From positions 496,001 to 560,000 of the forward strand of contig JGZV01000001.1 of the NCBI GenBank assembly GCA_000741495.1: a DNA stretch of 64,000 bases. Direction: 5' to 3'. Below the pieces are notes generated by a model. The model did no database searches and was not told the DNA's origin. It saw only the letters and a program-made list of their open reading frames with translations. This DNA is from Bifidobacterium thermophilum. Its GTDB lineage: Bacteria; Actinomycetota; Actinomycetes; Actinomycetales; Bifidobacteriaceae. Positions 8,095-52,616 of the stretch are shown here, piece by piece (positions within the stretch are counted from its first letter, which is position 1; the number at the start of each line of letters is the position of its first letter). Made by a program: the position numbers and the translations under genes.

Positions 8095-10682
<2,588 letters not shown>

Positions 10683-10698
<16 letters not shown>

Positions 10699-12468: not shown

Positions 12469-14634
12469 TCAGGCGTTCATGATCTTGGTCAACGACTGAA
12501 GACGCTCGTTATCGAACAGCTGCTCCAGCGGAACAACATTACCGTCATAATCAGCCAGCGGAATACGCCAATTCGGGTACTCGTTATTCGTGCCCGGCTG
12601 ATTCTGCGCGCGCTTCTCGCCGACCGCGTCGGTAATCGACGCCGCGATCAGCTTGCTCGGCGCATCCTTGAGTCCGCGATACAGCGCCTCGACGATCTGC
12701 TGCTCATTGGACTTCTCATCCTTGAGCAAATCGGCGTCCAGATAGCCGTTGTCCACGAGCATCCTCAGCATCGCGTTATGCTCCTTGGTCGCCGAAGCCT
12801 GGAACTCCTCAACCGGGCTGTCCAGCAGGCCGAGACGTTCACGGATCTTCACCTGCTCATACTCAAGATAGCCGTATGACGGCGGCATATCATGCGTATT
12901 GACCGAAGCCAACGCGTACTCGCGCCACGTCTTCGGAGCCTTGAACTCGCCTTCCATCTGCTCGAACCATTCAACAGCGCACCCGAGCACGCCATGACGG
13001 CCAAGGGACTTGGTGACGAAGTCCGGCACCACGCCGAGATCCTCGCCGACGACCACGCCTTCGGCGCGAGCCGCTTCAATCGCGAGAATACCGAGCATGA
13101 TTTCCGAATCGTAGTAGACATAAGCGCCATGCTTGGCGCCCTTGCCTTCCGGAATCCACCACAGGCGGAACAGGCCGAGAATATGATCGATACGGACGGC
13201 ACCGGCACGGGCGAACATGCCGTGCACCATCTCGCGATACACCTGGTAGCCGGTATTCTCCAGCTGAATCGGGTTCAGCGGCGGCTGGCTCCAGTCCTGG
13301 CCCTGCTGGTTGAAGTAATCCGGCGGGGCACCAACCGTGGCGCCCTTGGCGAAACGCTCCGGATTCCACCACACGTCAGAACCCGCCGGGTGAACGCCGA
13401 CAGCCATATCAGCCATCAGACCGATCTTCATGCCAGCGTCCTTGGCGGCCTGCTGTGCGGCTTCCAGCTGCTCGCCGGCAATCCATTCAAGCCAACGATA
13501 GAACTCAAGCGTATCCGGGAACTGGTTGCGCAACGCGGCGACTTCCGGCGACTGCTTGGTGTACTTGCGCTCCCAGTTATCCGGAGTGTCCTCAGGCTTG
13601 CCCCACTTGTCGTAGCACAGGCACCACGTGGCATACGATTCAAGCTCAGCACCCTGCTGCTTCTTGAACACGTCAAACTGCGCCTGACGGCCTGCCGGGC
13701 GTCCCGCCTTGAACACGAGCCACAGAGCGCGCATCTTCATCCGCCACATCGTATCACGGTCAATCAGCTGAGCGTCGCCGTTAAGCGGCTCAACCTGGGC
13801 GTGCAGCTCCTCGACCTGCTTGCGTGCGGCATCATCAAGCAGCTGATACTCTGCGATGGCTTCCGGACGGATATACGTGAAGTTCACGAAACGACGGCTG
13901 ATCGGCAGATACGGCGACGGCGTGAGCGGAGCGACCGGCTCACTGCCGTGCACCGGGTTGATCAGCATGAAATCAGCGCCGGTCTTGCGCTTGGCTTCGA
14001 CCAGCAGCGTCTTCAAATCCTCGAAATCGCCGACACCCCAAGAGCCCTGCGAACGAATCGAATACAGCTGAGCCATCCAGCCCCACAGCTGGCCGTGCTT
14101 CATCGGGTCGATCAGATCGATCTTCTCGGGAGCGCTAATCAGTGTAGCGTCCTGCTTGCGATCGCCCACCTGGACGTGCAAGGTGTGGTAGCCAATCGGC
14201 AGATCCTTCGGCAACGTCAGCGACGCGGTCGCAACAAACTTGCCGTCAAGCGAATACGCCTGCGACCCATCGCCGGCGCCGGCGACAATCTCTCCCTTAT
14301 ACGGCTCGCCGTTCTCCAAGGTGATGGTTGCGCTCGGAATCTCCAAAATACCGGTATTCACCAGCACGGAATCTTCCTTGCCGACCGTATGCAACACGGT
14401 CGGAGCAACCAGACGGGCATGCCGTTCGTCAAGAATCGTATGAATCGAGCGTTCGATGGCTTCATCATTTGAAGCGTCCACGCCAAGGGCCGCGAGCACC
14501 GCCACGAGGACGTCATCCTCGATCTCGTGGTAGTCGTTGCTCTGGCCGACATAACTGGTGCCGATGCCGACGAGCTTGGCGAGACGGATCAGAGGACGAG
14601 CAAGGCGCTCATCGTTTTCGGTCTTCTCTGTCAT
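12469..14634 (-). CDS. malQ: 4-alpha-glucanotransferase (amylomaltase, GH77)
   Basis: Transfers alpha-1,4-glucan segments between maltodextrins, complementing the debranching enzyme encoded nearby. Catalytic residues are visible as D483 (VRIDHILG), E531 (VVGEDLG) and D582 (NTHDMP), the GH77 nucleophile, acid/base and stabiliser. The N-terminal ~170 residues form the extra domain usual in long actinobacterial and enterobacterial MalQ proteins; total length 721 is normal. It is monocistronic, with a strong terminator before the ribosomal genes. Cytosolic, with no signal peptide. Confidence 0.95.
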   Translation of the reverse strand: MTEKTENDERLARPLIRLAKLVGIGTSYVGQSNDYHEIEDDVLVAVLAALGVDASNDEAIERSIHTILDERHARLVAPTVLHTVGKEDSVLVNTGILEIPSATITLENGEPYKGEIVAGAGDGSQAYSLDGKFVATASLTLPKDLPIGYHTLHVQVGDRKQDATLISAPEKIDLIDPMKHGQLWGWMAQLYSIRSQGSWGVGDFEDLKTLLVEAKRKTGADFMLINPVHGSEPVAPLTPSPYLPISRRFVNFTYIRPEAIAEYQLLDDAARKQVEELHAQVEPLNGDAQLIDRDTMWRMKMRALWLVFKAGRPAGRQAQFDVFKKQQGAELESYATWCLCYDKWGKPEDTPDNWERKYTKQSPEVAALRNQFPDTLEFYRWLEWIAGEQLEAAQQAAKDAGMKIGLMADMAVGVHPAGSDVWWNPERFAKGATVGAPPDYFNQQGQDWSQPPLNPIQLENTGYQVYREMVHGMFARAGAVRIDHILGLFRLWWIPEGKGAKHGAYVYYDSEIMLGILAIEAARAEGVVVGEDLGVVPDFVTKSLGRHGVLGCAVEWFEQMEGEFKAPKTWREYALASVNTHDMPPSYGYLEYEQVKIRERLGLLDSPVEEFQASATKEHNAMLRMLVDNGYLDADLLKDEKSNEQQIVEALYRGLKDAPSKLIAASITDAVGEKRAQNQPGTNNEYPNWRIPLADYDGNVVPLEQLFDNERLQSLTKIMNA

Positions 14635-34817: not shown

Positions 34818-35027
34818 TCAGTGCCCGCGCTCGCTGAACACCGCCCAATGAGGCGGCAGTTCGCCCAAAATCCGCTGATCGTCATCGGCGGCACGCTGTT
34901 CGGCGGTCAAGGTGTCGGACGGTTCAAGTTTGACACCATCCGCATCAAAACGCTCCGTACCCTGCAACGTCACCCGGTGGTGGCGACGCGGGGTACGACG
35001 ATGCGAATCATACGCGGGCGCCATCAC
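34818..35027 (-). CDS. Small basic protein coupled to the degenerate helicase gene
   Basis: 69 residues, unknown. The first third is rich in Arg and His (RRTPRRHHR), the remainder acidic, ending HWAVFSERGH. Its ATG overlaps the stop of the 1204-codon gene (ATGA, 4 nt shared), a strong sign of genuine translation and of co-expression. No domain was recognised. Position and coupling suggest that it works with the FHA/helicase-like proteins, perhaps as a nucleic-acid or protein adaptor. Confidence 0.7.
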   Translation of the reverse strand: MMAPAYDSHRRTPRRHHRVTLQGTERFDADGVKLEPSDTLTAEQRAADDDQRILGELPPHWAVFSERGH

Positions 35028-38000
35028 GCCTCCCCATACAACGTGCCGATACGGGCGACCATACGGTCCACTTCCTTATCAGGGTTCACGAACGCGGCGA
35101 CGCTCCACACCGTCATCGCCGACCAGCCAAGCCGGGCGAGCTCCTGCGGGAGCAGACGGTGACGTTCACGCGTGGACTGCATACTCATGAACTGCGCGTC
35201 ATCCGTAAGCACGGCAAGCGCAAACGGCTTGCCCTTCGCGCCGACCACCAGCGGAATACGCACACCGTCGCTGAACCCGTAATCCACTGCAACCTCCAGC
35301 CCGCGCGCCTTGACACGCTGGGCGAGATCATTGAACAGCACATTGTCAGCAACCTGAACCGGTGTCGGACGGACAGCCGTCGCGTCAAGCGTCGAAGCCC
35401 ACGACAGCAGCTGCTTGAGCAGACGCGGACCGGACTGGTGCAACCGCTCATCATCCATGTCTTCAGGGCCGAAGGAGGCGACAATATCAAGATTACGGTC
35501 GGCGAGCGCCAACGCGTCAAGCAGCATCCCCTTGCCGCCGTCGCCTTCCAGCGGACCGAACTGCTGAATCAGACGCCCGTGCGTGGTTTTCGCGTAACAC
35601 ATGGAAACGATGACATCCGTCGCTTGCGCACCGGCGACCTCATCAAGGCCGATAAGCCGCACGTGGCGCAGGAAACGCCCCATGGTCTTGTCTTTGGAGG
35701 CGAGCGACTTGAGTTCAGCGCCTAAGCGGGTGCGGAACACTTCAGTCATCGTGACCACGGTGAGCACGTAGGATACGGGGACCACAGTGAAGGATTTCGC
35801 CCGATCACAAATCAGTTTGGTCACGGTTTCGATTTCCTGCTGGCTGCTTTCCACCAGCCCTGAGGAAATGACCGGCACGCCGGTCGCCTCGATCCGATGC
35901 AGACGCACCATGCCTTGCATCCCCTCAGTCGGGACGGCACGGCGAACCGGCCCGTAACCGGCTTCCTGGAGGAACGCGGACAAGCGCGGCGAGCGGCGGG
36001 TCAACCGCGGTCGGGCCTCGACATGCGGCAGCAAGCCGATCAGCGTTTTCACACTCGGCGAGGTCACAGTCGCATCATGCGCGATAATGACGATCTGCCG
36101 GGCGCGGCAGATGATGGACAGCAGTTCAATGGCCGGCATGTGGGCGGCAGCGTCGATAATCGCCACATCCGCCAGCGGCGTGGGGTCAGTCAGCGCGGCG
36201 AGCGTGGACGGGGTCGCCATAAGTACCGGCTTGGCCAAAGCCATGATTTGCGGGTGGTCGCGCAATACGCGTCCCAACGGCGTGTTCGGGCCGCCGGCGA
36301 GCACCGTATGCAGTTGGTTCGCTTCCTGTGTCTTGGAAAACAGCAAGTCGCACAGTTTGCGCAGCGACTCTTGATGAATCATCGGGCCGATTGAACGCAC
36401 ATGCTCGGTATCGACCTGGCTGAACCGGTCCGCAGCCGTTTGCAAGGCGGAACCATCCTGGTTCGAGATGATTGCGGACTGTTTGACGATATCCTCGAAT
36501 ACGGTCGTCCACCACGACAGCTGGAGTTCACCCTCCACCGCTTCAACCGACACGTGGCGGGCACGCAGATCATCAACCAGCTCATCCAAACCGACCGACT
36601 TGAATTCCTGTTCAAGCACGCATCGTCCAGGCAGCGTGTCCAACGCCATATGGTCGTTATACAGGGCTTTGAGACGCTCTTCCAGCGTGTTGAAATCGAG
36701 GGATTCAAGATTGCCGCCCTTGGGTGTCGTGGCAAGCACCGCGTCCAAGGACGTGATATTACGCATCAGGGCGTCCTGCGTTTCGAGAATCGTGTCCAGT
36801 TTCGGCGGCAGGACAGGCCATCCGCCGTGAGGCACGAACAGATGCCACTGCTCGGACTGCTTGGCGACTACAACCAGCGCATCATGCAGATTCTCGACTT
36901 GTGCGCCCACGCGAAGCAGGCCCTTGGCTTCTTTGACCAGCCGGCGACGCTCCCAGAACCCCAGATCGGAGCCTTCTGACTTGCGTTGCTGCTTCGACTT
37001 GCTGGCCTCGATCATCGAATCGATGTCGCGTTCGAAAATCTCCGGCTGGAACACGTCAAGCACGCGGCGCAGATTCTTGAGCACGGTGACCTGCCGACCC
37101 CACTCCTGAGCGGTGGTGGGGACCGGGAACCCGCAAGTCTGCACGGTGGTCGCAACCTGCTCGCGGGTTGCAGGCAGCAGCTTCTGCATCAAATCGACCA
37201 CACGCTGGTACGCGTTGACAGCCTGCTCTTCAGTGGTCAGCGACGCCTGATACCACGCGGTATCATCCGGGCCGACGGTGTATTCACCGAGCTCGCCTGC
37301 GGCACGCAGCTTGTTCGCCCACTCATCCATATGCCCGTTCAACGTGCGGGCCGCGGTGTCGCTCAATCGCACGTGAGTGGCGGGATGGGTAGGCAAGGTC
37401 GCGATACTGGCGAGATTCTGGATGGTCTGGTACGCGGACACGCCCCAACGCTCGTTGATACCGTGCAAATCGCCCAAATAGCGGGTCAGGCGTGAACGCA
37501 CGCCGACCAGTTCGTCAGACAACTGATCGAAGCGGCTTGACGCATTGCCCGCCCGATAGCCGACCGCGGCGATCAGCTGCTTGTCAATCGCAAGATTGCC
37601 CTGCTCATCGGCAATATCAAGCACCAAATCACCAATGACATTACTGCCCATGATTTTGGTAAACCGGCGCTTCTGCTCGGCCACGCACGGCACATACAGC
37701 ACCGAACGACCGTTCATGATGCAACGCGAGGCGATGGCCGCAGCCTGCGCCGCACTGCCGTTGCCGACTTCACTATCCAACACGATGGAATGCCCTGCGG
37801 CAACAACATTCGCGGCATACCGCACGGTGTTGTCCACATCGCCAACCTCGTATTCGGCATGCGGGTCGCCATCGAAGGGACTGTATTCGGGAATCTTGTC
37901 GGATTCGATATCGTGAATCGCCTGGGCATCGCCGGCGAGCGCATCAAGCATGGTGTTACCGGTCGGCCCCTTGCGCAACGCGTCGATAATCCGCTGGCTT

Positions 38001-38638
38001 TCCAGCAGAATCTGCGCGCTCGGATCCATGAAACAGCCGACGATGATGTACCGGTCAATATCGAAATCGGCGAACGCCCGGCGTGCCTGCTTCTCAATCG
38101 CCGCGAACACGGCGGATGTTTCCGGCGTGCCATTGTCGTAGTTCGAACCGTCAAACAGCTCGTCTTCATCAAGATTGACGCCCTGATCATGCAATTCGGT
38201 CACAAACGCGGGGTTGAGTCTGCCACGTCCGGTGAATTTGATCGTGGCGTCGGTTTCACCGCCGCCCGGCTTACGGGTCACGTCCACCGGGTACAGCAGG
38301 ACAGGCACGGATTTGCCGGACCACGTGGCCACGCCGACAACCATGGACAGTTCCGCGACGCCACTGATCCGGCTTTTCGCGGTCTGATCCTCGTACACGC
38401 GTTCCAGGCGACGCCCGGCGGCACGCAACATGCCAGTGTCGCGGAACAGGGAATCGAGCGGCGCTTTGCCGCTGGCGAACAGCTGGGCGATACCCGACGG
38501 GTGGGCATGGGTCAAGTCAAGTTGGGCGGACAACTGGCTGATATCTTCAAGCGGAGACGGTGCCAGCGAATTACGGTAGTCGTCCCGCCAACGCCGCATC
38601 TGGCGCAGCGCCTGATCGGATTGGGTGAATTCGCTCAT
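35024..38638 (-). CDS. Catalytically degenerate SF1 helicase/Vsr-like nuclease protein
   Basis: 1204 residues with the layout of large DNA2/Upf1-type helicases carrying a C-terminal Vsr-like nuclease, but the active sites are eroded. The region equivalent to Walker A reads DSEVGNGSAAQAA (G292-S295), lacking GKT/S. The Walker B/DEAx equivalent reads VAIIDAAAHMPAIEL (D829), lacking the glutamate. The C-terminal Vsr-like segment (~1120-1195; IPLVVGAKGKPFALAVL then TDDAQ...RLLPQELARLGW) lacks the IExDG glutamate. The reading frame itself is intact, so it is probably a maintained non-enzymatic scaffold. It begins 8 nt after the FHA gene's last stop and overlaps the 69-codon gene. Confidence 0.75.
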   Translation of the reverse strand: MSEFTQSDQALRQMRRWRDDYRNSLAPSPLEDISQLSAQLDLTHAHPSGIAQLFASGKAPLDSLFRDTGMLRAAGRRLERVYEDQTAKSRISGVAELSMVVGVATWSGKSVPVLLYPVDVTRKPGGGETDATIKFTGRGRLNPAFVTELHDQGVNLDEDELFDGSNYDNGTPETSAVFAAIEKQARRAFADFDIDRYIIVGCFMDPSAQILLESQRIIDALRKGPTGNTMLDALAGDAQAIHDIESDKIPEYSPFDGDPHAEYEVGDVDNTVRYAANVVAAGHSIVLDSEVGNGSAAQAAAIASRCIMNGRSVLYVPCVAEQKRRFTKIMGSNVIGDLVLDIADEQGNLAIDKQLIAAVGYRAGNASSRFDQLSDELVGVRSRLTRYLGDLHGINERWGVSAYQTIQNLASIATLPTHPATHVRLSDTAARTLNGHMDEWANKLRAAGELGEYTVGPDDTAWYQASLTTEEQAVNAYQRVVDLMQKLLPATREQVATTVQTCGFPVPTTAQEWGRQVTVLKNLRRVLDVFQPEIFERDIDSMIEASKSKQQRKSEGSDLGFWERRRLVKEAKGLLRVGAQVENLHDALVVVAKQSEQWHLFVPHGGWPVLPPKLDTILETQDALMRNITSLDAVLATTPKGGNLESLDFNTLEERLKALYNDHMALDTLPGRCVLEQEFKSVGLDELVDDLRARHVSVEAVEGELQLSWWTTVFEDIVKQSAIISNQDGSALQTAADRFSQVDTEHVRSIGPMIHQESLRKLCDLLFSKTQEANQLHTVLAGGPNTPLGRVLRDHPQIMALAKPVLMATPSTLAALTDPTPLADVAIIDAAAHMPAIELLSIICRARQIVIIAHDATVTSPSVKTLIGLLPHVEARPRLTRRSPRLSAFLQEAGYGPVRRAVPTEGMQGMVRLHRIEATGVPVISSGLVESSQQEIETVTKLICDRAKSFTVVPVSYVLTVVTMTEVFRTRLGAELKSLASKDKTMGRFLRHVRLIGLDEVAGAQATDVIVSMCYAKTTHGRLIQQFGPLEGDGGKGMLLDALALADRNLDIVASFGPEDMDDERLHQSGPRLLKQLLSWASTLDATAVRPTPVQVADNVLFNDLAQRVKARGLEVAVDYGFSDGVRIPLVVGAKGKPFALAVLTDDAQFMSMQSTRERHRLLPQELARLGWSAMTVWSVAAFVNPDKEVDRMVARIGTLYGEA

Positions 38639-42277: not shown

Positions 42278-42997
42278 CTACCGGCCATATTGTCTAAGCT
42301 TCTTGTCAAGAATCGCAAGGATGATGCCCCCGTATTCCGGCCACTGAGGCGACATCAGAATACGCTGTTTCTCCTTTTCGAGCTCGTTCCGGGTCTTTGC
42401 CGATCCGCCATGGCACCGAGCGAGAAGCCTTTGCAAATACTCACTGATGTAGCTCTTCCTGTTGGCGACGAGCCGCCGCTCATTCAGATTCAACACCGCG
42501 ATATCCGCCTCGGCATCATCATCGCCATCGGCACCACACATATACCCAGACGCTTGACGATAGGAAATCCTCCGCCTGCATTCTTCTTCCGCCGGGTCGA
42601 CGTGCAACTCGATATTCTTCCGCTTCTTGTCGCAACATTGCTCGCCATCACCGGTAGCACCGTCACAGCATGCGAACATATTGCGGTAATCAATCGACAG
42701 CCTGTCATCTTCCTTGGCAGCCTGCGGATCATGTTTTCCCCGTTCGCTATGGCGAGGATGCCAATGCTCGATATGCGCCCGGGAGCCGCTTCCGCTTCCC
42801 CTGGAGTGGATTCTACGCTCGCAATATACGCACAACCTGTGCTGTTTCTCGGTCAAATCCTCAAGTAGAGGCGGCTTGATTTCAGGCGGCAAGTGGTCAT
42901 AGTCCTGCGGAGTGTCAGGCGTCACCTTCATTATTCCGACGGCCTCCACGTATGCGTTTGGCGCCCCGCCCGTTTTATCCACATACAGCATAATCAT
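42278..42997 (-). CDS. ptuB: PtuB-like HNH endonuclease (TIGR02646-type), Septu-like system
   Basis: 239-residue predicted nuclease. The zinc/HNH elements occur in the order expected for TIGR02646/PtuB: CVYCERRI, AHIEHWHPR (the catalytic His region), NMFACCDG and CCDKKR. It overlaps the ATPase gene by 4 nt (ATGA), so the two are made together. PtuA-PtuB pairs are anti-phage modules found alone (Septu) or as effectors of retron Ec78-type systems; no reverse transcriptase or msr-msd is seen here, so this is the stand-alone form. It sits between rplJ and the pilus operon, an accessory insertion. Confidence 0.75.
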   Translation of the reverse strand: MIMLYVDKTGGAPNAYVEAVGIMKVTPDTPQDYDHLPPEIKPPLLEDLTEKQHRLCVYCERRIHSRGSGSGSRAHIEHWHPRHSERGKHDPQAAKEDDRLSIDYRNMFACCDGATGDGEQCCDKKRKNIELHVDPAEEECRRRISYRQASGYMCGADGDDDAEADIAVLNLNERRLVANRKSYISEYLQRLLARCHGGSAKTRNELEKEKQRILMSPQWPEYGGIILAILDKKLRQYGR

Positions 42998-44331
42998 TCG
43001 CCGCCCAGTGTCATGAAGTCATACGCGGCACGTTCCCGAGCCAGTTCAGCGTCATCCGGGCCAATCAGGGATTCAAGTTCATCCAACAGCGTCTTGGCCT
43101 GACCATATGCCGAATCGTCAAGCGCTTGCTCCAACCGCTTGAACATGTTCCTGACCTCGCCGGGACGGTCGTGGGCGCCCATGACATGGGTGAGGACGTC
43201 GTTCGAGCTGCTGCCTGCCACATGCCCCTGATATGGCCGCCCACCTGTCTCGTCGATGATACGCAGGCAGGATGAGTCCTTCACCGAGGAAAGTACCAGA
43301 GGCGCATGGCTCGTGACTATGAACTGTACTTTCGGGAAGGTTTCCGTCAGCACTTCAAGAATGTGTTCTTGCCATTTCGGGTGCAGGTGAAGATCGACCT
43401 CGTCGATGAGCACGACACCGGGGGTGCGGGACACCACTTGCTCACCCAACGCCGGATTCAGCATCGCCATGCGGAAGGCGATATCGCCGACCATGCTCAT
43501 GACACTACGGTAGCCATCGCTCAACATGCCGATCGGCAACTCGGTGACACCGTCATTATGACGGTAGGTCACGATGATCTGCCCTAGGTCAACCGAATAC
43601 TCGACATCGATCGCTTCCGCGTCTTCGTCCTGCAAGTGGGCGACACAGCTTGCCATCGCCTTACGGACCGCAATATACAGCGGACTTTCCTTTTTGCGGG
43701 CCGCACTTTGCAACGCCATACGCATGAACCAGTACCTCATGAGGTTGTCATTCGTGTATGCGTCCAGGCAGTCGATATACCCGTTCAGTCTTGATACGCC
43801 GCCACTGAAATCACGGTCGTACACGTACGCGCTGGTTTTCTTGTGCGTCCAGACGCGCCCGGTCCCGTAATATCCGAGCATCGGCAGAATCAGGCTCTCA
43901 TCATGCGATTGGACGCGTTGCTGGCATTCATCCGCATACGCGTTGATTTCCTTGCAATCGCCTTTGCCTGCGTGCCCTGTTGAAAGGATTTGCCTCGCCC
44001 ACATCATCTCGGGCGCCCCGCCGTGCGGCAAGTCGTCACGATAGCCATAGGCAGTGACGCGGACGGGATATTGCCGCTCAGTCTGGACCTGATCGCCTTG
44101 CAGGAAAGATACTCTGCGGACATCGGTGTCCTTGTTGAACTTGCGTGAATGGTTCTTACCTTTGGAGTCCGGCAACCTGATGAGGAACGCCCCGAGAGCG
44201 ATGGCCGCGGCGTCGAGAATCGCCGATTTGCCTGCACCGTTATTGCCGATGAGTACGGTCATGCTGGGGTCAAAAGCGATGTGGGCATCTTCGAAGGACC
44301 GAAAGTTCTGTAGTTCAAGCGAGCTTAGCAT
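42994..44331 (-). CDS. ptuA: PtuA-like AAA/ABC-type ATPase, Septu-like system
   Basis: 445-residue RecF/OLD-like ATPase. LELQNFRSFEDAHIAFDP and Walker A LIGNNGAGKSA (29-36) open the protein, LSDGYRSVMSMVGDI is the ABC-signature region, VVLIDEVDLHLHPKWQ is Walker B, and FIVTSHAPLVLSSV the H-loop. This architecture, paired with a TIGR02646 HNH protein, is that of Septu PtuA. The ATG at 44331 follows AAGGAG by 5 nt. It is inferred to sense infection and license the HNH nuclease. Confidence 0.75.
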   Translation of the reverse strand: MLSSLELQNFRSFEDAHIAFDPSMTVLIGNNGAGKSAILDAAAIALGAFLIRLPDSKGKNHSRKFNKDTDVRRVSFLQGDQVQTERQYPVRVTAYGYRDDLPHGGAPEMMWARQILSTGHAGKGDCKEINAYADECQQRVQSHDESLILPMLGYYGTGRVWTHKKTSAYVYDRDFSGGVSRLNGYIDCLDAYTNDNLMRYWFMRMALQSAARKKESPLYIAVRKAMASCVAHLQDEDAEAIDVEYSVDLGQIIVTYRHNDGVTELPIGMLSDGYRSVMSMVGDIAFRMAMLNPALGEQVVSRTPGVVLIDEVDLHLHPKWQEHILEVLTETFPKVQFIVTSHAPLVLSSVKDSSCLRIIDETGGRPYQGHVAGSSSNDVLTHVMGAHDRPGEVRNMFKRLEQALDDSAYGQAKTLLDELESLIGPDDAELARERAAYDFMTLGGE

Positions 44332-44517: not shown

Positions 44518-45651
44518 TCAGTAGCCGTGACGGTTGGTGGTGTGTTGGATGGGCATCCAGCGGTTGTTGCGGTGCAGTACCGTCCAGCCGATGAGGGTGA
44601 TGGCGACAGCGGCGGCGGTGATGATGACGCCGAGCAGGCGGGAGTCACCGCGGGCGTCCTGCGGGTAGGGGGCTGGCACGGGCATGCGCACGCGGTGGCC
44701 CGACACCAGCAGACGATGCGTGTTGACGCCGTACGGTGTGCAGGTCATGAGCGTAACCCGGTCCTCGCCGGGCCGGATGCGCAGATACCGGTCGCCTTCG
44801 GTCGGCAGGATCACGGTGATTGAGTCCACCTGGTAGGCGAGCGTCTCCCCCATGACCTTGATGTAGAAGTCGTCGCCTTGTTTGAGTTCGTCGATGCGGG
44901 TGAACATGAGGGCGCTGACCATGCCGCGATGTCCGGTGAGCACGGCATGCGTGTTCTTGCCGCCGACCGGCAGCGACGTACCGTATAGGTGGCCGGACCC
45001 GCGGTTCAGGGAGTTCGCGCTCGTGCCATGGTAGATGGGCAGGTTCACGGAGATTTTCGGGATGACGATCGAGCCCATGATGCCGTCGTTGGACGCGTTG
45101 AGCAGGCTCATGTACGTGGCGTCCTGCGCTGACATGGAATCGTTGTCGTCGTTGGTGGTGGAGCGGCCGGAGTCGGTGGTGAACGGATCCTGCGCCTCGC
45201 CGATGGTCGGCTGGCCCTCGGCGGCGAGCTTCCTGTTGTAAGCACGAGCCGCGGCAAGCGCTTCCTTGGCTTGCGGGTATGGCCAGCCATTCACGTTCTT
45301 GTCGACTTGCGCGGCGAGCTGGGCCTGATGCTGGTGGTCGATGAATTGCAGCGCATACGGGTAGCCGATGATGGAGACGCCGACGATGGCGCAGATGATG
45401 GCGATGGCGGTGAATATGCGCGCCTGCAGGCGTGCCGAGCGGGCCTGGCGCATGCGTTCGGCGTGGTCGGGCGCGAACAGTTCGGGCATGGTGCCCGGGT
45501 TGGGGACGAATGCCGTGGCACCGGGTGATGCCGTGCCGGATGGCGTGGTCTCGGTTGGCGTGTCGCCTGCGGTGGATGGTGTGTCTGGGCGGCTGACGCT
45601 GCTGGCGTCTTGCTGATCCGTGGTGTGCCCGCGGTGTTGGTTGTGTCGCAT
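44518..45651 (-). CDS. srtC: Class C (pilus-polymerising) sortase
   Basis: Membrane transpeptidase that links pilin subunits. A Pro/Thr-rich N-terminal region precedes a membrane helix (FTAIAIICAIVGVSIIGYPYA), then the sortase barrel with H241 (LTGHRGM), C304 (TLMTCTPYG) and R313 (THRLLVSG), and a second C-terminal helix (LLGVIITAAAVAITLIGWTV), which is typical of class C enzymes. It is the third gene of the pilus operon, behind a strong hairpin after fimA that may limit its expression. Confidence 0.93.
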   Translation of the reverse strand: MRHNQHRGHTTDQQDASSVSRPDTPSTAGDTPTETTPSGTASPGATAFVPNPGTMPELFAPDHAERMRQARSARLQARIFTAIAIICAIVGVSIIGYPYALQFIDHQHQAQLAAQVDKNVNGWPYPQAKEALAAARAYNRKLAAEGQPTIGEAQDPFTTDSGRSTTNDDNDSMSAQDATYMSLLNASNDGIMGSIVIPKISVNLPIYHGTSANSLNRGSGHLYGTSLPVGGKNTHAVLTGHRGMVSALMFTRIDELKQGDDFYIKVMGETLAYQVDSITVILPTEGDRYLRIRPGEDRVTLMTCTPYGVNTHRLLVSGHRVRMPVPAPYPQDARGDSRLLGVIITAAAVAITLIGWTVLHRNNRWMPIQHTTNRHGY

Positions 45652-45937: not shown

Positions 45938-47857
45938 TCAGGCCAGACGGGAGGCCTTGCGGGCGCGAACCGCGAACAGGGCGGCCAGCGCGACAATCGC
46001 CACGCCGATGACGCTGAAGAACGCGATGCCCGCGGCACCGGTCTTCGGCAGCTGCGTGATGGAGGTCACGTTGTTCACGGTGACGGTCGAGGTGTCATCA
46101 ATCGCAGTCACCAGACCATTCGCGTTCTTCGTATCATACTGGTACGTCACGTTCTTCAGCGACTGGTCACCGGAAGTTGCATCGCCGGCGGCATCGTTGG
46201 ACGTGTCATCGTTCCATCCCGCGCCGATCGTGACACCGAACGAAGGCAGCGCACCCTGGTAGTAGCCCTTCGGCGCCTTGATCTCGTGGACCGTGTATGT
46301 GCCGGCCTTGAGACCATCGAAGGCAATCTGGCCGTCGGAACCGGTCACGAAAATGCCGGTCCCGGCTAGCTTCGCGGCATCAACGGTCTTGTCGGCTGTG
46401 TCGTATGCGGCGGACGCGGTCGGCTCGTCAGTGCCAGCGGTGCTCCACTTGCCGTCGACGCGCTTCAAGTACTGGCCGTCGAGATCCTTGATGGTGAACT
46501 GGGCGTTCGCCAGCTTCGTGTCGGGATTCTTCACGTACTGCTTGACGAGGCTGAACTTGAACGAGTACACGTTCACCGTCGGGCCGTTCACCTCATGGTG
46601 CCCGGTGGTGGTGTGGTCGGAGAAGTCGACCTTCACGCTGTTCGCGTTGCCGTTCGGGTCCACGCCCGACACCAGGTCCGTGCTGCTCGCCTTGTCGGTG
46701 ACGAACGCGTTCTCGTTGAGAGTCGCCTTCAGCACGACCTTGATGACATCACCGGTCTGCCATGCGATGCTCTTTGCGGTGTTGCCATCGCCGTTGACCA
46801 GCTTGCCGAAGTCAAACTTCATGCCGGTGACCGTGATGCCATCGGAAGCCTTGGTCACATCAGCCGTGTAATCGGCGTCCTTTGTCAGAACGCCGTTAGT
46901 GACCTCAGTGCCGTCGTTACGGTACAGCTTGACACCGTCAACGGCAACTGTCGGATTGCTGAACGGGATTTTCTTGTTGGCGTTCTGCTCGAAGGTATCC
47001 GTCAGCACCAGCTTGCGGGCGTCACCGGCCGACAGGTCAGCGGCGTTCTTCGTGTATCCGGCGTAATCCGGGATTGTGGTCGACAGCTCGAAGGTGACCT
47101 CGTCGCCCAGCGAATACGACGGCGTCGTATACGGCTTCGTCGGGTCGTCGTTCTGCACGACCTGCTTGGTCACCGGGACCTCGGTGTTCTTCATGGTAAT
47201 TTTGCCCACATCGAGAGAGTCGTTAGCTGCTTGCGCCAGAGACGCAAACGTGGTGCCCACGAGCATCGGCACCGACTGCGTGCTCTTGTTGGAACCTGCA
47301 GCAGGCGCGTACTTATCGATGATCAGGTACAGGCCCTCAGGGAGCTGGTTGCTCGCGCCGGCAGCGCTCGCATTCACGTTTTCTTTCGAGAAGCTGGGCT
47401 TCCAACCGCCTGCGATGAGCTTGGCGAGCTCATCGGCGAACTGGCGTTCAGTGGCGTTATCTTTGTAACCCCACGACGAGGTCTCAGAATGACCGACCAC
47501 CTGCTTGAGACCTTCCTCAGCGGCAGACTCAGTGGCAGACCCAGTGGCGGTCACGTGGGCGTTCTTCAAAGCATCCACAATTTTGGCTTCATCCGTGGGA
47601 TCTTCGACAACATACTTGAATGTATCGAGGTTCAGGTTGCCGTCTTTGTCCTTTTCATAGCCGCTGTTATAGGCTGCGATCTTGTAGGCCGTCAGCGTAT
47701 GATCAGTGGTGTCATGCTCCGCTTTGATGGTCAACGTGCCCTCGTTTGTCGAGGCAGTGCCCGCGGCCTGCGCGGCACCGGCGCCAAGCGCCAGACCGCC
47801 AACGGCCATGGCCGCAGCGGCCACACCCGCGAAGAACCTCTTCAAAGAAGTCTTCAT
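45938..47857 (-). CDS. fimA: Major pilin subunit (LPKTG-anchored)
   Basis: 639-residue shaft pilin. A Sec signal peptide (MKTSLKRFF ... GAGAAQAAG, ~1-32) is followed by pilin-type Ig domains, an E-box-like YTVHEIKAPKGY near ~545 that should form isopeptide bonds, the sorting signal LPKTG (603-607), a hydrophobic helix and a basic tail. The lysine used in polymerisation is not certain. AAGGAG precedes the ATG. It lies between the tip-protein gene and srtC, the typical bifidobacterial pilus operon order. Confidence 0.92.
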   Translation of the reverse strand: MKTSLKRFFAGVAAAAMAVGGLALGAGAAQAAGTASTNEGTLTIKAEHDTTDHTLTAYKIAAYNSGYEKDKDGNLNLDTFKYVVEDPTDEAKIVDALKNAHVTATGSATESAAEEGLKQVVGHSETSSWGYKDNATERQFADELAKLIAGGWKPSFSKENVNASAAGASNQLPEGLYLIIDKYAPAAGSNKSTQSVPMLVGTTFASLAQAANDSLDVGKITMKNTEVPVTKQVVQNDDPTKPYTTPSYSLGDEVTFELSTTIPDYAGYTKNAADLSAGDARKLVLTDTFEQNANKKIPFSNPTVAVDGVKLYRNDGTEVTNGVLTKDADYTADVTKASDGITVTGMKFDFGKLVNGDGNTAKSIAWQTGDVIKVVLKATLNENAFVTDKASSTDLVSGVDPNGNANSVKVDFSDHTTTGHHEVNGPTVNVYSFKFSLVKQYVKNPDTKLANAQFTIKDLDGQYLKRVDGKWSTAGTDEPTASAAYDTADKTVDAAKLAGTGIFVTGSDGQIAFDGLKAGTYTVHEIKAPKGYYQGALPSFGVTIGAGWNDDTSNDAAGDATSGDQSLKNVTYQYDTKNANGLVTAIDDTSTVTVNNVTSITQLPKTGAAGIAFFSVIGVAIVALAALFAVRARKASRLA

Positions 47858-48074: not shown

Positions 48075-51000
48075 TCACTTGCGCCTGCGACGCCGTGCGA
48101 TGCCATACGACACCGCCGCCACGCCGAGCACGATCAGGCCCACTATCACCACATTTCGTGGAGTCCACTCACCTCCCGTCAATGGTAGAGATGTGATGGA
48201 AGTCTCATTCTCGATGGAACCCAGGTCGATATTCAACAGGGTACGATCCATCGGATCGGACTGCGAAGCGCGCACGATGGTGAACGTGTAGGTTTTGTCC
48301 GACAGCTGGTGGTGGGCAGGCGCCTTCGTCTCCTTGAGCTCGTACTTGCCCCACGGAAGGTTCTTCAGCGTGATTTCACCCTTGCCGGGGTTGGTATCGC
48401 AGTACCACTCTGCGCATGTATGGGTTGCCGACGTGGTGTGGGTCCAATCAGTGACGGTCTTTTTGTACTTCGGGGTGTTGGGCGCATAGTCGGGGTACAA
48501 GATCAACTGCCACTCAGACCCTGGCAACAGATTCTCACCACTCTCGTCGGTTTTCTTCCACGTGACCGAACCTGTCATCCCCATGTTGAGAATCTTGTTG
48601 CCATTCCCTTTGATATCGGCGAAAGAGCCGCCGATCTCGACCGCTTTGGAGGCATCAGTGGTCACTGTGAACGTGTATTCGGTGTCCGCCAGCTGGTACA
48701 GGGTCGGGGCCACGGTCTCTTTCAGCTTGTACGTGCCGACAGGCAGGCCCTTGATGCTGATGACGCCAGCCGTGCCATCCGCATCCTGGTATGTGGTCGT
48801 GTCGCCGACGCAGCGCGAGGCATCGATCTGCGCGTTGTTGTCCGCGAGGCAGAACACTTCACCCGACGCATCAGTGATCTTCCATTGTGAGCCGGCAAGC
48901 TTGCCTGAATGGCTGGGATCGTTCGCGTTGCTGCCGTCGACCTTGTACCACGTCACCACGGTCGGGGTATCGGGCACCTGAAGCACGCCGTCGGCGTTCA
49001 CGAGGCTTGGGGCGTCGCCTGTCCAGTTCACTTTGCCGTCCTTGACCGTAAAGGAATACGACGTGGCGTTGAGCGTATACCCCACCGGAGCGGTCGCCTC
49101 TTTCAGCGTGTACGTGCCGTCGTCCAGATCCTTCACGGTGAACTTGCCGACGCCGCTGTCCGTATCTTCCAACGTGTCGGTGTCAGCGGCCAGACGCAGG
49201 GACGGCTTGACACTGTCCGTCGTGGTTCTCACAACGGCATCCGAGGCATGCGACATGCCGGTGCCGGTTGACAAGGTTTTGTCTGTCGCATTGATAACGG
49301 TCCCCGAGGTCTTCGCCGCGGCCATAGTGGCTTGGGAATCGACCAGGTCTGAAGTCACTTCGGTCGGGCAGCTGGTCCCGCTCGGGGCGCCATCCGTCGC
49401 CTTGCCGATGCCCACGGTGATGGCGGAGCCGCCGGTGAACGAGAAGTTCGTGTTGCCGGTGGCCTTGTACCAGTTCGCCGTGTTGTCGTTCGTGTTGCTG
49501 TTCGAGAACAGGAATTGCTTGCCGGAAGTCGCCTTGTCGATGATGGCGTACACGTAATCACTGCTGCAGGAGGCCTGCTTCATCTTGACGTAGTTGCCTT
49601 CAGTCAGCCACGAGCCATCATTCTTCTGGTACTTGAGGTAGACGTCACCCGTCCAGCCGGACTCCGTGTGATGGAAGTAGACCACCATCTTTGAGCTGTC
49701 GACATTGATGACAGTGACATGGAGCCGGACCGACTTGTTGCCTGCGGTGGCGACCACCGTGGTGCTTCCGGTTTTCTTGGCTGTCACCAGGCCAGAGCCG
49801 CTCACCGAGACGATGTCAGGATCCAACGCGGACCAGCTGGTTGCCACGGTGTTCGGGTCGACAGTCGCTTGGAACAGTTGCGTCTTGTTGACGAACATTT
49901 TGACGTCCGCCTCGGCGCTCACCGTCTTGCCAGCGTCGCCTGAGGCTTTGGCCACGGTGGAACCGTCGCTTGTCACCGTCAACGAATTGACATTGACGGC
50001 GTTGACCGTGACATTCACGCTCGAGCAGATGCCACTGTTCGTGACCGAGCAGGCCGTAATGGTGGATCCTCCAGCCGCGACGCCGGTGACCACGCCGTCG
50101 GTCACCACAGCGACGTTGGTGTTGGACGATTTCCATGTCACTTGCTGGCTCGCCTCAGCTGGGGCCACGGAAGCTTTCAGGGTGATGGTCTTGTACGCCT
50201 CGACCTGCACACTGCCGCCACTGACCGGGGTGTCGCCCTGGGTCAGGGTAATGCCGGTGGCGGCAGTGGTGTTGTCATTCACTGTCCAACTGGTGGGTGT
50301 ACTGGCATCGGTTTTCGTGAGGGTCCAGCTTGATCCGGCGAGTCCGGTCTTCGAGCTGTCGCCCTCGGCGTATTTCGTCCAGCTGACGCTGCTCTTCTTC
50401 TTGTCGCCGATCGCGTAAGCGGTACGGCCGTCAGCAGCCGTGAAGGAGTGCATCATCTGGTCATCGGAAGTAGTGACTTGTGTACCGTTCTTGTCGTACA
50501 CCAACGACGTCAGGAAATTAACGTTGGCATCCCCTTTCTGCTTGGTCTGAACGGTATAGATGTTGGTGTTGAGCCGGTAACCTTCCGGCGCCTTCGTCTC
50601 TTTGATGAAATAGTTCGCATTCGGCTTGAGCCCTTTGACAACTACCTTGCCTTCCTTGTTGGACCAATCGTTACTGCCGTTGTCAGTCACCGAGATGATG
50701 GCGTTGTTGCCGCTCTTCGCGTCATCGATTGAGCCGTATACACTCCACGAGGCTCCGGAAAGAGTCGTCTTGCCGTCCGAGTTGTCGACTTTGCTCCAGC
50801 CTATGGCGGAGCTGTCCTGCGTGTAGTACGCGTTCCACGGCAGGTTATGGCGTTCCTGGTCCATGTCGATGACGGACGCGGAGTTGCCGCCTTCGAAATT
50901 GGTGAACGGGGTGCCGTCGGTGTACGTCACCGGCGTGGGGTTATCTACCTCGAAGTCCCCGCCCACATACACGCGGCCGTTGGTGGACACATGCGACTGG

Positions 51001-52616
51001 AAACCGCCGTTCGGCACATAAATACTGCCGATCCATGCCGCCGCAGGGTCGTCGCTCGTGGTCATCTGCTTCTCGGTCTTGGTGGCACCGTCCTTTGATA
51101 TCACCGTCTGGTTGCCGGTGCCTTGGCCGCCGCGGATGGTCAGCTGCGTGGTGTACGGGAAGTTCCAGAGCACCTGCTGGGCACGCTTGGCATACATTGC
51201 AGGCTCATTATCACTGCCCGACTTGGTGTAGGAGTAGTACCCTCCGATTTCCGTCACATCGGAATCGGTAATCTGGGAGGTTGCATTGCCGCCCCACCAC
51301 ATGCGCCAGCCGTTGTGGAAGTCCAGGGTGTTCGTCTTCGTTGTCGATCCGTCATCGTTGATCACGTTCACGACCACCGAAGCGCTGTCCGGGATGCTGC
51401 GGAACCAGAAATCAACACCTGAGTACTTGTCACCGTCAGTCGACAAGTCCGAAGCCTTGACATTGAAGACCTGCAGGGCAGACTCACCGTCGCCGGTTAG
51501 GGTGATGAGCTTCTCGTTCACACCGCCGGTGAATTTGAATTTGTAACTATCGATGGTCTGGGTGTTGTAGACCTCATGCTTGAAGTAATCATACTTGTAC
51601 CGCGTCAAACCATTCGCGTACGGCGCACTGATGACCGTGGTGTAGGTGCCATTGGCGGTGAGGCGGGTAAGGTCCTTTGATTCTTTTTGCAGGGTATCGG
51701 TGCCGAAGTTGGCGTATTCGACACCGTTGATCTTGAAGGATTTGGAGGGGTCCTTAAGCGTATCCCAGCCACCTTCATATCGAGTGCCGTCTAACACCCT
51801 CGCCAAAGAGGTGTATTTGGGCAAATTAGAATTGCCCCATTCACGGGAAACTGATGAATTAGACGGTACCGTCGCCATGTATCTGAATTTTCGACTATCA
51901 CTAGGGTAACCAACCCAGCCACCGCCGTAGTTGTTGGCCTGCTCGGTTCCCCATGCCGCGACATCAATGTCTTTGTTAATGTCTTTGTCGCCCATCAACG
52001 TAGTGATGCCCGATTTGTCCAAACCGCGCACAGCCAGCACGCTGGCATCTCGATCAATACCCTCATCATCCTTATATGTTTCAGCAGGGCGGAACTGGGA
52101 GCCGAAGCCTACCACACCGAAGCGGAAGCCCTGGCCGCCCCAGCTCTTCTTGACCTGACGCATGGCAAGACGCCCATCGACCAAGGTCAGACCCTCGGCC
52201 TCTGCCGCATAGGATCCGGTGATACCGGTTTCACCGTTGAGATTGTCCTGCACCGTTTTGCCATTCGAGTCGATTTTCTCGCCGATATACATGTTGCCGC
52301 CCACATAGGTGGCGACGCCGGTATCCGGGTTGTTCGTCGTCGTAACATTGTCGCCGAGCGACAAGGTCTGCGGCGGGGATATGGCGCCGGCATCCTTGAT
52401 CGAGGAATCCCAAGCGCCTCCTGTGAGCGTGGAATCACCCTTCGCGGTGAACGCCACCACATACGACAGCATCATGGCCGACGCTGCGCACACCGCTGTG
52501 GCAATGACAGACAGACGACGCGCGGATGCGCGCAACGCCACCCCATTGCCGTGCGCATACCGGGCCGCCCCGCCGCCCCTGTGCTTTGGGGCCCTCGCCT
52601 TCCACGGGTTCACCAT
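48075..52616 (-). CDS. Large pilus tip/adhesin protein with SpaA, BIG2 and CBM-like modules
   Basis: 1513-residue surface protein, minor or tip pilin. A signal helix (~35-58) precedes a ~540-residue N-terminal adhesin region. SpaA/CnaB-type domains end in E-box motifs: FIKETKAPEGY (~665), TLKEATAPVGY (~1175), KLKETVAPTLY and ELKETKAPAHH. The second is interrupted by ~350 residues with two BIG2-like modules (~805-870, ~905-970) and a segment (~973-1075; MVVYFHHTESGW, GDVYLKYQKNDGSW) resembling starch-binding CBM25/26. LPLTG (1477-1481), a helix and an RRRRRK tail anchor it. AAGG precedes the ATG. It starts the pilus operon. Confidence 0.88.
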   Translation of the reverse strand: MVNPWKARAPKHRGGGAARYAHGNGVALRASARRLSVIATAVCAASAMMLSYVVAFTAKGDSTLTGGAWDSSIKDAGAISPPQTLSLGDNVTTTNNPDTGVATYVGGNMYIGEKIDSNGKTVQDNLNGETGITGSYAAEAEGLTLVDGRLAMRQVKKSWGGQGFRFGVVGFGSQFRPAETYKDDEGIDRDASVLAVRGLDKSGITTLMGDKDINKDIDVAAWGTEQANNYGGGWVGYPSDSRKFRYMATVPSNSSVSREWGNSNLPKYTSLARVLDGTRYEGGWDTLKDPSKSFKINGVEYANFGTDTLQKESKDLTRLTANGTYTTVISAPYANGLTRYKYDYFKHEVYNTQTIDSYKFKFTGGVNEKLITLTGDGESALQVFNVKASDLSTDGDKYSGVDFWFRSIPDSASVVVNVINDDGSTTKTNTLDFHNGWRMWWGGNATSQITDSDVTEIGGYYSYTKSGSDNEPAMYAKRAQQVLWNFPYTTQLTIRGGQGTGNQTVISKDGATKTEKQMTTSDDPAAAWIGSIYVPNGGFQSHVSTNGRVYVGGDFEVDNPTPVTYTDGTPFTNFEGGNSASVIDMDQERHNLPWNAYYTQDSSAIGWSKVDNSDGKTTLSGASWSVYGSIDDAKSGNNAIISVTDNGSNDWSNKEGKVVVKGLKPNANYFIKETKAPEGYRLNTNIYTVQTKQKGDANVNFLTSLVYDKNGTQVTTSDDQMMHSFTAADGRTAYAIGDKKKSSVSWTKYAEGDSSKTGLAGSSWTLTKTDASTPTSWTVNDNTTAATGITLTQGDTPVSGGSVQVEAYKTITLKASVAPAEASQQVTWKSSNTNVAVVTDGVVTGVAAGGSTITACSVTNSGICSSVNVTVNAVNVNSLTVTSDGSTVAKASGDAGKTVSAEADVKMFVNKTQLFQATVDPNTVATSWSALDPDIVSVSGSGLVTAKKTGSTTVVATAGNKSVRLHVTVINVDSSKMVVYFHHTESGWTGDVYLKYQKNDGSWLTEGNYVKMKQASCSSDYVYAIIDKATSGKQFLFSNSNTNDNTANWYKATGNTNFSFTGGSAITVGIGKATDGAPSGTSCPTEVTSDLVDSQATMAAAKTSGTVINATDKTLSTGTGMSHASDAVVRTTTDSVKPSLRLAADTDTLEDTDSGVGKFTVKDLDDGTYTLKEATAPVGYTLNATSYSFTVKDGKVNWTGDAPSLVNADGVLQVPDTPTVVTWYKVDGSNANDPSHSGKLAGSQWKITDASGEVFCLADNNAQIDASRCVGDTTTYQDADGTAGVISIKGLPVGTYKLKETVAPTLYQLADTEYTFTVTTDASKAVEIGGSFADIKGNGNKILNMGMTGSVTWKKTDESGENLLPGSEWQLILYPDYAPNTPKYKKTVTDWTHTTSATHTCAEWYCDTNPGKGEITLKNLPWGKYELKETKAPAHHQLSDKTYTFTIVRASQSDPMDRTLLNIDLGSIENETSITSLPLTGGEWTPRNVVIVGLIVLGVAAVSYGIARRRRRK

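Follow-up and report, generated by a model that had tools for sequence, protein, structure and literature searches.

A putative sortase-pilus tip protein of Bifidobacterium carries a CBM25/26-type module nested in a CnaB domain and exchanged between species

Results

The 64-kb window, by which we mean the whole stretch of DNA analyzed here, belongs to a Bifidobacterium-type genome of 2.10 Mb and carries a pilus operon on its minus strand, in which the tip gene comes first and is followed by those of the major pilin and a class C sortase (Table 1). The occurrence of an LPXTG signal, a class C sortase, and a major pilin in one cluster confirms the sortase-pilus context, and of 47 tip ORFs with at least 900 aa, 42 are followed within 6.5 kb by a homolog of the class C sortase. 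The size of the first protein, its head domain, and the gene order suggest that it is located at the pilus tip. Its closest named relative is found in B. boum, with 71% identity in the best tblastn segment and 91% across the aligned insert region, and the next in B. apri, with about 50% identity. This close relative in B. boum is split over three ORFs (L107, 6751-10316, and L067); intact copies exist elsewhere, and the second tip gene of B. boum (L129) is intact.

Other scans of the window returned little. We detected no G or C runs of at least 8 nucleotides that would indicate phase variation, promoter and terminator scans gave a signal no higher than the shuffled level, and an Rfam scan recovered 4 tRNAs and nothing else. 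The sortase gene adjoins a PtuA/PtuB-like pair (42278-44331, minus strand; NCBIfam scores of 228 and 82 bits, both below cut-offs), a pair of the Septu/retron-Ec78 type that combines an anti-phage ATPase with an HNH nuclease, and further along the same strand (35027-38638) lies a 1204-aa protein with an MTES_1575 restriction-endonuclease-like domain at its C terminus.

Table 1. Pilus operon, domains of the tip protein, and nearest glucan genes in the window
Feature	Residues	Window position	Strand	Basis or remark
Tip pilin, LPLTG-anchored		48075..52616	-	1513 aa ORF, placed as in the initial annotation
N-terminal head, choice-of-anchor A type adhesive domain	62-598	50823..52433	-	TIGR04215, 36.9 bits (cut-off 29)
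CnaB1	600-738	50403..50819	-	SpaA stretches, alignment
CnaB2, first half; predicted isopeptide Lys748	743-785	50262..50390	-	K in 37/37 insert-bearing tips; model
Big_2 Ig domain 1	786-875	49992..50261	-	Pfam Big_2; 7quz, Z 13.4, 1.1 Å
Big_2 Ig domain 2	876-972	49701..49991	-	Pfam Big_2, second stretch; 4hu8, Z 10.4
CBM25/26-type module; K995, W1003, W1049, C1018	973-1086	49359..49700	-	Family profile, fold
Low-confidence linker	1087-1150	49167..49358	-	pLDDT <50 at 1090-1145
CnaB2, second half; E-box Glu1173, predicted isopeptide partner Asp1216	1151-1216	48969..49166	-	E in 37/37; D in 26/37, N in 11/37
CnaB3	1219-1345	48582..48962	-	SpaA
CnaB4	1347-1475	48192..48578	-	Best SpaA stretch 1349-1451
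LPLTG sorting motif, then membrane segment and Arg tail	1477-1481	48174..48188	-	Sequence
Major pilin, LPKTG		45938..47857	-	639 aa; NF033902 SpaH/EbpB, 90.3 bits (below cut-off 95); LPXTG anchor
Class C sortase		44518..45651	-	377 aa; NF033745, 267.4 bits (cut-off 160)
MalQ		12472-14634		>33 kb from tip gene
GH13 enzyme		8095-10695		>33 kb from tip gene

The tip protein matches Pfam SpaA in 4 stretches (179.6 bits, E 1.3e-53, above the cut-off), and its head belongs to a domain type that scores above the cut-off for Pfam pAdhesive_15 in a relative (L089). The initial annotation had described a SpaA-type domain as interrupted and later resumed with its E-box; we find the same for the second SpaA/CnaB domain, which starts at S743, breaks at about residue 785, resumes at about residue 1151, and carries its E-box at Y1169-Y1180. 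The putative isopeptide triad of this split domain (K748, E1173, and D1216) is K, E, and D or N in all 37 insert-bearing tips, the window's included, and the conserved residues suggest that a K748-D1216 isopeptide bond locks CnaB2. The two BIG2-like segments proposed within the insert likewise hold up, as the isolated segment matches Pfam Big_2 in two stretches (53.2 bits, cut-off 22.8, E 2.9e-14) and the model of the region described next matches a Big_2 structure.

An AlphaFold model of residues 738-1202, built with 35 relatives, has a mean pLDDT of 84.2, with values below 50 only at residues 1090-1145, and a pTM of 0.60, at which the placement of the domains relative to each other is unreliable. 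Compared by VIA, model residues 47-136 match a Big_2 structure (7quz; Z 13.4, 1.1 Å, 82 residues), and model residues 237-342 match both a CBM25 with bound maltotetraose (2c3x; Z 12.4, 2.1 Å, 92 residues) and a CBM26 (2c3h; Z 10.0, 3.1 Å, 92 residues). Matches that span model residues 3 to 461 with just 82 residues aligned are to the CnaB folds of BcpA (3rkp; Z 9.1, 2.3 Å) and 6fwv (Z 9.7, 2.1 Å), so that in the model the two halves of CnaB2 appear to close round the insert. The best 50 Foldseek matches of this 465-aa model were mainly Big_2 and Ig chains and included no CBM25, and the module was therefore also modeled alone (residues 970-1086, 37 rows; pLDDT 90.3, pTM 0.85). With this model the first three Foldseek matches are CBM25, CBM25, and CBM26 (2laa, 6.8e-6; 2lab, 1.4e-5; 2c3h, 9.2e-3), and the first eight VIA matches are all CBM25/26, led by 2c3x with maltotetraose (Z 12.2, 2.1 Å, 92 residues) and followed at ranks 9 and 10 by the Ruminococcus bromii starch adherence protein Sas6; all of the best 50 VIA matches are alpha-glucan modules or enzymes that carry one. 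Residues 973-1086 thus model as a CBM25/26 beta-sandwich.

At the sequence level the window's module is a divergent CBM25/26 relative that does not reach the Pfam cut-off, an identity that we draw from the family profile, the fold, and relatives at the same position. Pfam hmmscan of the window's own module gave no CBM match at E 10 or 0.1, and the best PDB matches of the single sequence, antibody chains and a diabody at E 0.016 and worse, were set aside as chance Ig-like similarity. A profile of 31 tip modules, drawn from 36 tip rows after one insert-free row, two broken frames, and two multi-CBM rows were dropped, matched just two PDB sequences with E values under 0.9, the CBM26 2c3g (1.4e-7) and the CBM25 2lab (1.8e-7). 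Modules at the same site exceed the Pfam cut-offs in 5 of 9 other tips chosen for scanning, three with CBM_25 (cut-off 27.3; Aeriscardovia L142 and L140 with 38.5 and 39.7 bits, Pseudoscardovia L143 with 39.8) and two with CBM26 (cut-off 28.1; B. criceti L147 with 42.6 bits, B. globosum L124 with 29.4); genome scans also placed CBM26 above its cut-off within the B. criceti and B. globosum tips and CBM_25 at its cut-off within one more tip (G030). The CBM25/26-like segment of about 100 residues that the initial annotation had noticed is therefore upheld by fold, family profile, and same-site relatives, and lacks a Pfam CBM match of its own.

Tip modules have a mean column identity of only 24 to 26% among themselves. 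A cysteine at the position of Cys1018 occurs in 38 of the 43 distinct tip modules and in 13 of 13 distinct modules of other proteins, mostly amylases, but the 2c3g and 2lab chains in the alignment lack it; being common to tips and amylases, it suggests that the family draws on a single stock of modules. Some tips carry several modules: the G060 tip (L089, 6849-12395; 1848 aa) has three CBM modules and the G030 tip (L091, 5984-11194; 1736 aa) has two.

To place the insert among homologous domains we aligned 47 named tips. A conserved head motif retrieved them from 49 loci, two ORFs being present at some of these, and we omitted truncated ORFs together with one near-duplicate. The insert of the window's tip is 382 aa long between residues 773 and 1154 and, judged by the CnaB fold, runs from about 786 to 1150 (~365 residues). 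A CBM-type insert of 309 to 495 aa occupies the same site in 36 of the 47 tips, and the site is nearly empty, with 12 to 30 aa, in 7 (four Collinsella, B. choloepi, the second tip of B. cuniculi, and one of Pseudoscardovia suis), so that the segment is a true insertion relative to homologous CnaB domains, as the initial annotation had supposed. Three further tips have intermediate inserts of 122 to 154 aa, and one tip of Pseudoscardovia radai (L150, 6606-13340; 2245 aa, eight E-box matches) has 436 aa at the site, in which a CBM is undetectable. Of the 36 insert-bearing tips, 33 show the module with the CBM profile (E 0.01), the exceptions being L123, L126, and L128; the remaining 11 tips gave no match.

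A closely related genome of the same genus, G101, also has a tip without the insert (L156, 4948-8304); this tip has no LPXTG match and carries LLPYAGG near its terminus. On a tree of heads this insert-free tip forms a starred group with those of the window and B. apri, both of which have the insert, which indicates that the insert comes and goes. The tree of 48 heads lends no support to a single origin of the insert: it needs 7 state changes, at least 3 of them forced by starred branches, with L150 coded as insert despite the lack of a CBM match in its 436 aa and the three intermediates coded as empty. In a sample of 396 genomes spread evenly over the phylum, profile A5 (E 1e-6) matched 37; the window's genome alone matched the whole profile, and the matches of the other 36 lie in the Ig part or at the E-box end, with a few partial overlaps. 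The matched genomes include no second member of the window's family, a phylum-even sample being no measure of that family.

The CBM module moves between tips of different species, which is new in this analysis. Among the 630 pairs formed by the 36 insert-bearing tips, 14 have heads that are at least 65% identical, 6 of which have CBMs no more than 45% identical; tips whose heads are 79 to 81% identical have CBMs 24 to 31% identical. The second tip of B. boum (L129) shares 81% amino acid identity in the head and 92% in CnaB1 with B. merycicum (L137), and over residues about 922-1043 its DNA is 97 to 100% identical to that of B. ruminantium (L121), compared with 42 to 55% to B. merycicum (40-residue blocks); in the 40 residues after the module it is back to 94% with B. 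merycicum. A two-breakpoint test on this tip gave residues 745-1039 as the best segment, ruminantium-like at 261 of 293 informative sites inside it and at 155 of 958 outside (chi-square 411; maximum 14 in 20 shuffles), which indicates that the exchange took part of the Ig arm too; fine windows place abrupt transitions near residues 922 and 1043, where the module ends. Between B. merycicum and B. pongonis the segment found, residues 955-1067, is the module itself (99/143 sites inside, 192/1286 outside; chi-square 211 versus 22), and in B. globosum the test is unclean, with a signal that runs from residue 958 through the end and no discrete CBM segment. In other pairs the module is more conserved than the sequence around it: between the window and B. 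apri it is 68% identical, versus 27 to 60% for flanking parts and 43 to 48% for the Ig neighbors, and between B. cuniculi and B. italicum 77%, versus 30 to 63% elsewhere and 51 to 54% for the Ig neighbors.

The Bacillus halodurans module BhCBM25 contacts maltotetraose via W34, W74, H26, D81, and N76, according to the part of PMC4625611 considered here. By alignment, the window's platform has W1003 and W1049 as two of the three aromatics and K995 at the H26 position, a lysine shared by B. boum and B. apri. In a MAFFT alignment of 31 tip modules the W34 position is W in 29, among the best-kept residues, the W74 position is W in 21, and the H26 position is Y in 13, H in 6, K in 3, W in 1, and another residue in 8. 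An HMM alignment of 43 modules gives W in 26 at W34, W in 20 at W74, and Y in 12, H in 12, and K in 4 at H26; the counts differ because loop lengths vary and columns shift. The incomplete counts at W34 and W74 mean that some tips may have lost or altered binding, and the tips of Aeriscardovia have a complete YIHY...W...WDNNG motif.

The initial annotation had linked the tip to glucan metabolism genes nearby. The nearest that we identified, among the 24 ORFs of the window that were scanned, are MalQ and a GH13 enzyme; the genes exist, but at their distance (Table 1) the proximity argument is weak. The relevant glucan link is genome-wide, as amylases with related modules lie on other contigs: the CBM26/CBM_25 amylases and further CBM25/26-bearing frames of this genome are on contigs C2, C3, C7, and C11. 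In a sample of 112 genomes of the genus, 40 of which have this tip type as detected by its head, 32 were assigned as insert-bearing from several searches combined. CBM25/26 occurs above cut-off in other proteins of 26 of these 32 genomes, the remaining 6 having none, versus 18 of the 80 without an insert tip (Fisher 1.4e-8, uncorrected for phylogeny); starch CBMs are present in 3 of the 8 genomes that have a tip head and in which no tip with a CBM-type insert was found. Two loci, L093 and L095, encode clustered large proteins that carry CBM_25, numerous Big_2 domains, and SLH repeats and include amylases; they resemble a cluster described in the part of PMC13271388 considered here.

Discussion

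Discussion of the sortase pili of gut bifidobacteria usually centers on adhesion to the host. A starch-binding module appears to be present on the pilus tips of many bifidobacteria and to come from the same stock as those of their starch enzymes, and the pilus may grip food starch, beyond the gut wall alone. We consider it likely that the tip protein is the end of a sortase pilus whose CnaB2-nested Ig-Ig-CBM25/26 arm binds alpha-1,4-glucan and tethers the cell to starch, with alpha-glucan or starch as the predicted ligand of the module. Two rigid Ig domains would project from CnaB2 with the CBM25/26-type module at the arm's end, where alpha-glucan chains would stack on its tryptophan platform; by holding starch granules or fragments, the module would tether the cell where secreted CBM-bearing amylases act, and the pulling force on the pilus would run through the isopeptide-locked CnaB chain. 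CnaB2 may serve as a docking bay for an exchangeable module, by which tips would come to differ in glucan preference. As a more tentative proposal, which we put forward with some reservation, tips could be modular glucan grapples with a CnaB socket, an Ig-Ig-CBM arm, and a CBM cartridge that passes between species through recombination at its boundaries, retuning the alpha-glucan gripped.

The lysine in place of His26 in the window, B. boum, and B. apri could instead mean that the CBM25/26 fold has been re-aimed at host glycogen, mucin-type glycans, or a neighbor's polysaccharide, with its specificity diversified by swapping. The low mean column identity (24 to 26%) and the divergence of CBMs (24 to 31%) between tips with 79 to 81% identical heads are in keeping with such a change, as is the N-terminal head, which provides a separate adhesive domain. 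We nevertheless think a re-aimed module unlikely, given that the stacking tryptophan is kept in 29 of 31 modules (MAFFT), that the best 50 VIA matches are all alpha-glucan modules or their enzymes, and that CBM25/26 starch enzymes are found in 26 of 32 insert genomes versus 18 of 80, uncorrected for phylogeny. Ig arms act as rigid spacers elsewhere, and the insert might likewise be a structural spacer or a decoy, a CBM fold without sugar binding that serves stiffness or immune variation; its absence from close relatives such as G101 would fit, and swapping and low identity are compatible with surface variation, but conservation of the tryptophan platform, the canonical H-W-WDN motifs of the Aeriscardovia tips, and a CBM better kept than its Ig neighbors in both the window/B. 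apri (68 versus 43 to 48%) and the B. cuniculi/B. italicum (77 versus 51 to 54%) comparisons make this improbable. A role of the module in docking CBM-bearing amylases of the same cell, or their glucan-bound complexes, to assemble enzymes on the pilus surface would suit the module stock and Cys1018 shared with amylase CBMs (38/43 tips, 13/13 others) but seems very improbable to us, since CBM25/26 are glucan binders with, to our knowledge, no protein-docking role.

Binding of starch by the pilus tip would bear on several reports of pilins raised on starch, here taken from parts of two papers. The sortase-pilus genes MM0196_0074-0078 of B. pseudocatenulatum MM0196 are raised on starch (PMC11286577), which cites the same rise for B. 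adolescentis 22L, and pilin-related proteins of B. globosum 45 are raised as well (PMC13271388); the part of the latter considered here states that what pilins do in starch metabolism still awaits elucidation and proposes that pilins may aid the assembly of enzyme complexes, a suggestion that would also suit amylase docking. On this partial coverage, B. globosum is the only species of these studies with both starch-raised pilins and a demonstrated CBM tip, in different strains (45 and 2093B, the latter with L124). Such rises have been reported repeatedly without a cause, and a CBM25/26-type module at the tip would offer a direct and testable one; cartridge exchange, if real, would account for the unexplained rise. 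Swapping further suggests that specificity evolves by cartridge exchange within a covalently locked domain, which is useful for protein engineering, and how bifidobacteria use starch matters in practice for prebiotics. In the literature covered, mostly titles and the starts of abstracts and exclusive of Duranti 2014 (22L) and Milani 2017 (fimbriome), we found no pilus tip of a bifidobacterium described as carrying a starch-binding module.

Several known systems resemble the tip protein in part. FimB/SpaC-type minor pilins share its multiple CnaB domains, LPXTG anchor, and neighboring class C sortase, but a nested carbohydrate-binding module is undescribed for them in the literature examined, which was seen in part; homologs in Collinsella aerofaciens (L133, L139, L141, and L146) have the same head and CnaB order with the site empty at 26 to 30 aa. 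The modules of Bacillus halodurans amylase G-6 (2C3V/W/X, 2C3G/H) and Paenibacillus polymyxa amylase (2LAA/2LAB) share the beta-sandwich over 92 to 94 residues and the tryptophan platform positions; these Bacillus and Paenibacillus CBM25/26 reside in secreted enzymes, whereas the tip module is nested in CnaB, with Cys1018 and a lysine for His26. Bifidobacterial amylases with Big_2 and CBM25/26, in this genome (C7 and C3) and genus-wide, show the same Big_2-CBM neighborhood and the shared cysteine, but unlike the tip they are catalytic GH13 proteins and not sortase-pilus proteins. Sas6 of R. bromii, which we take to combine a CBM26 with Ig-type domains, belongs to an amylosome-type system, unlike the sortase pilus. 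It resembles the tip module by VIA (7uwu, 7uww; Z 9.5) and is, like the tip, noncatalytic and on the cell surface; the Sas proteins of the R. bromii amylosome attach by dockerin and cohesin, and the tip instead has an LPXTG anchor.
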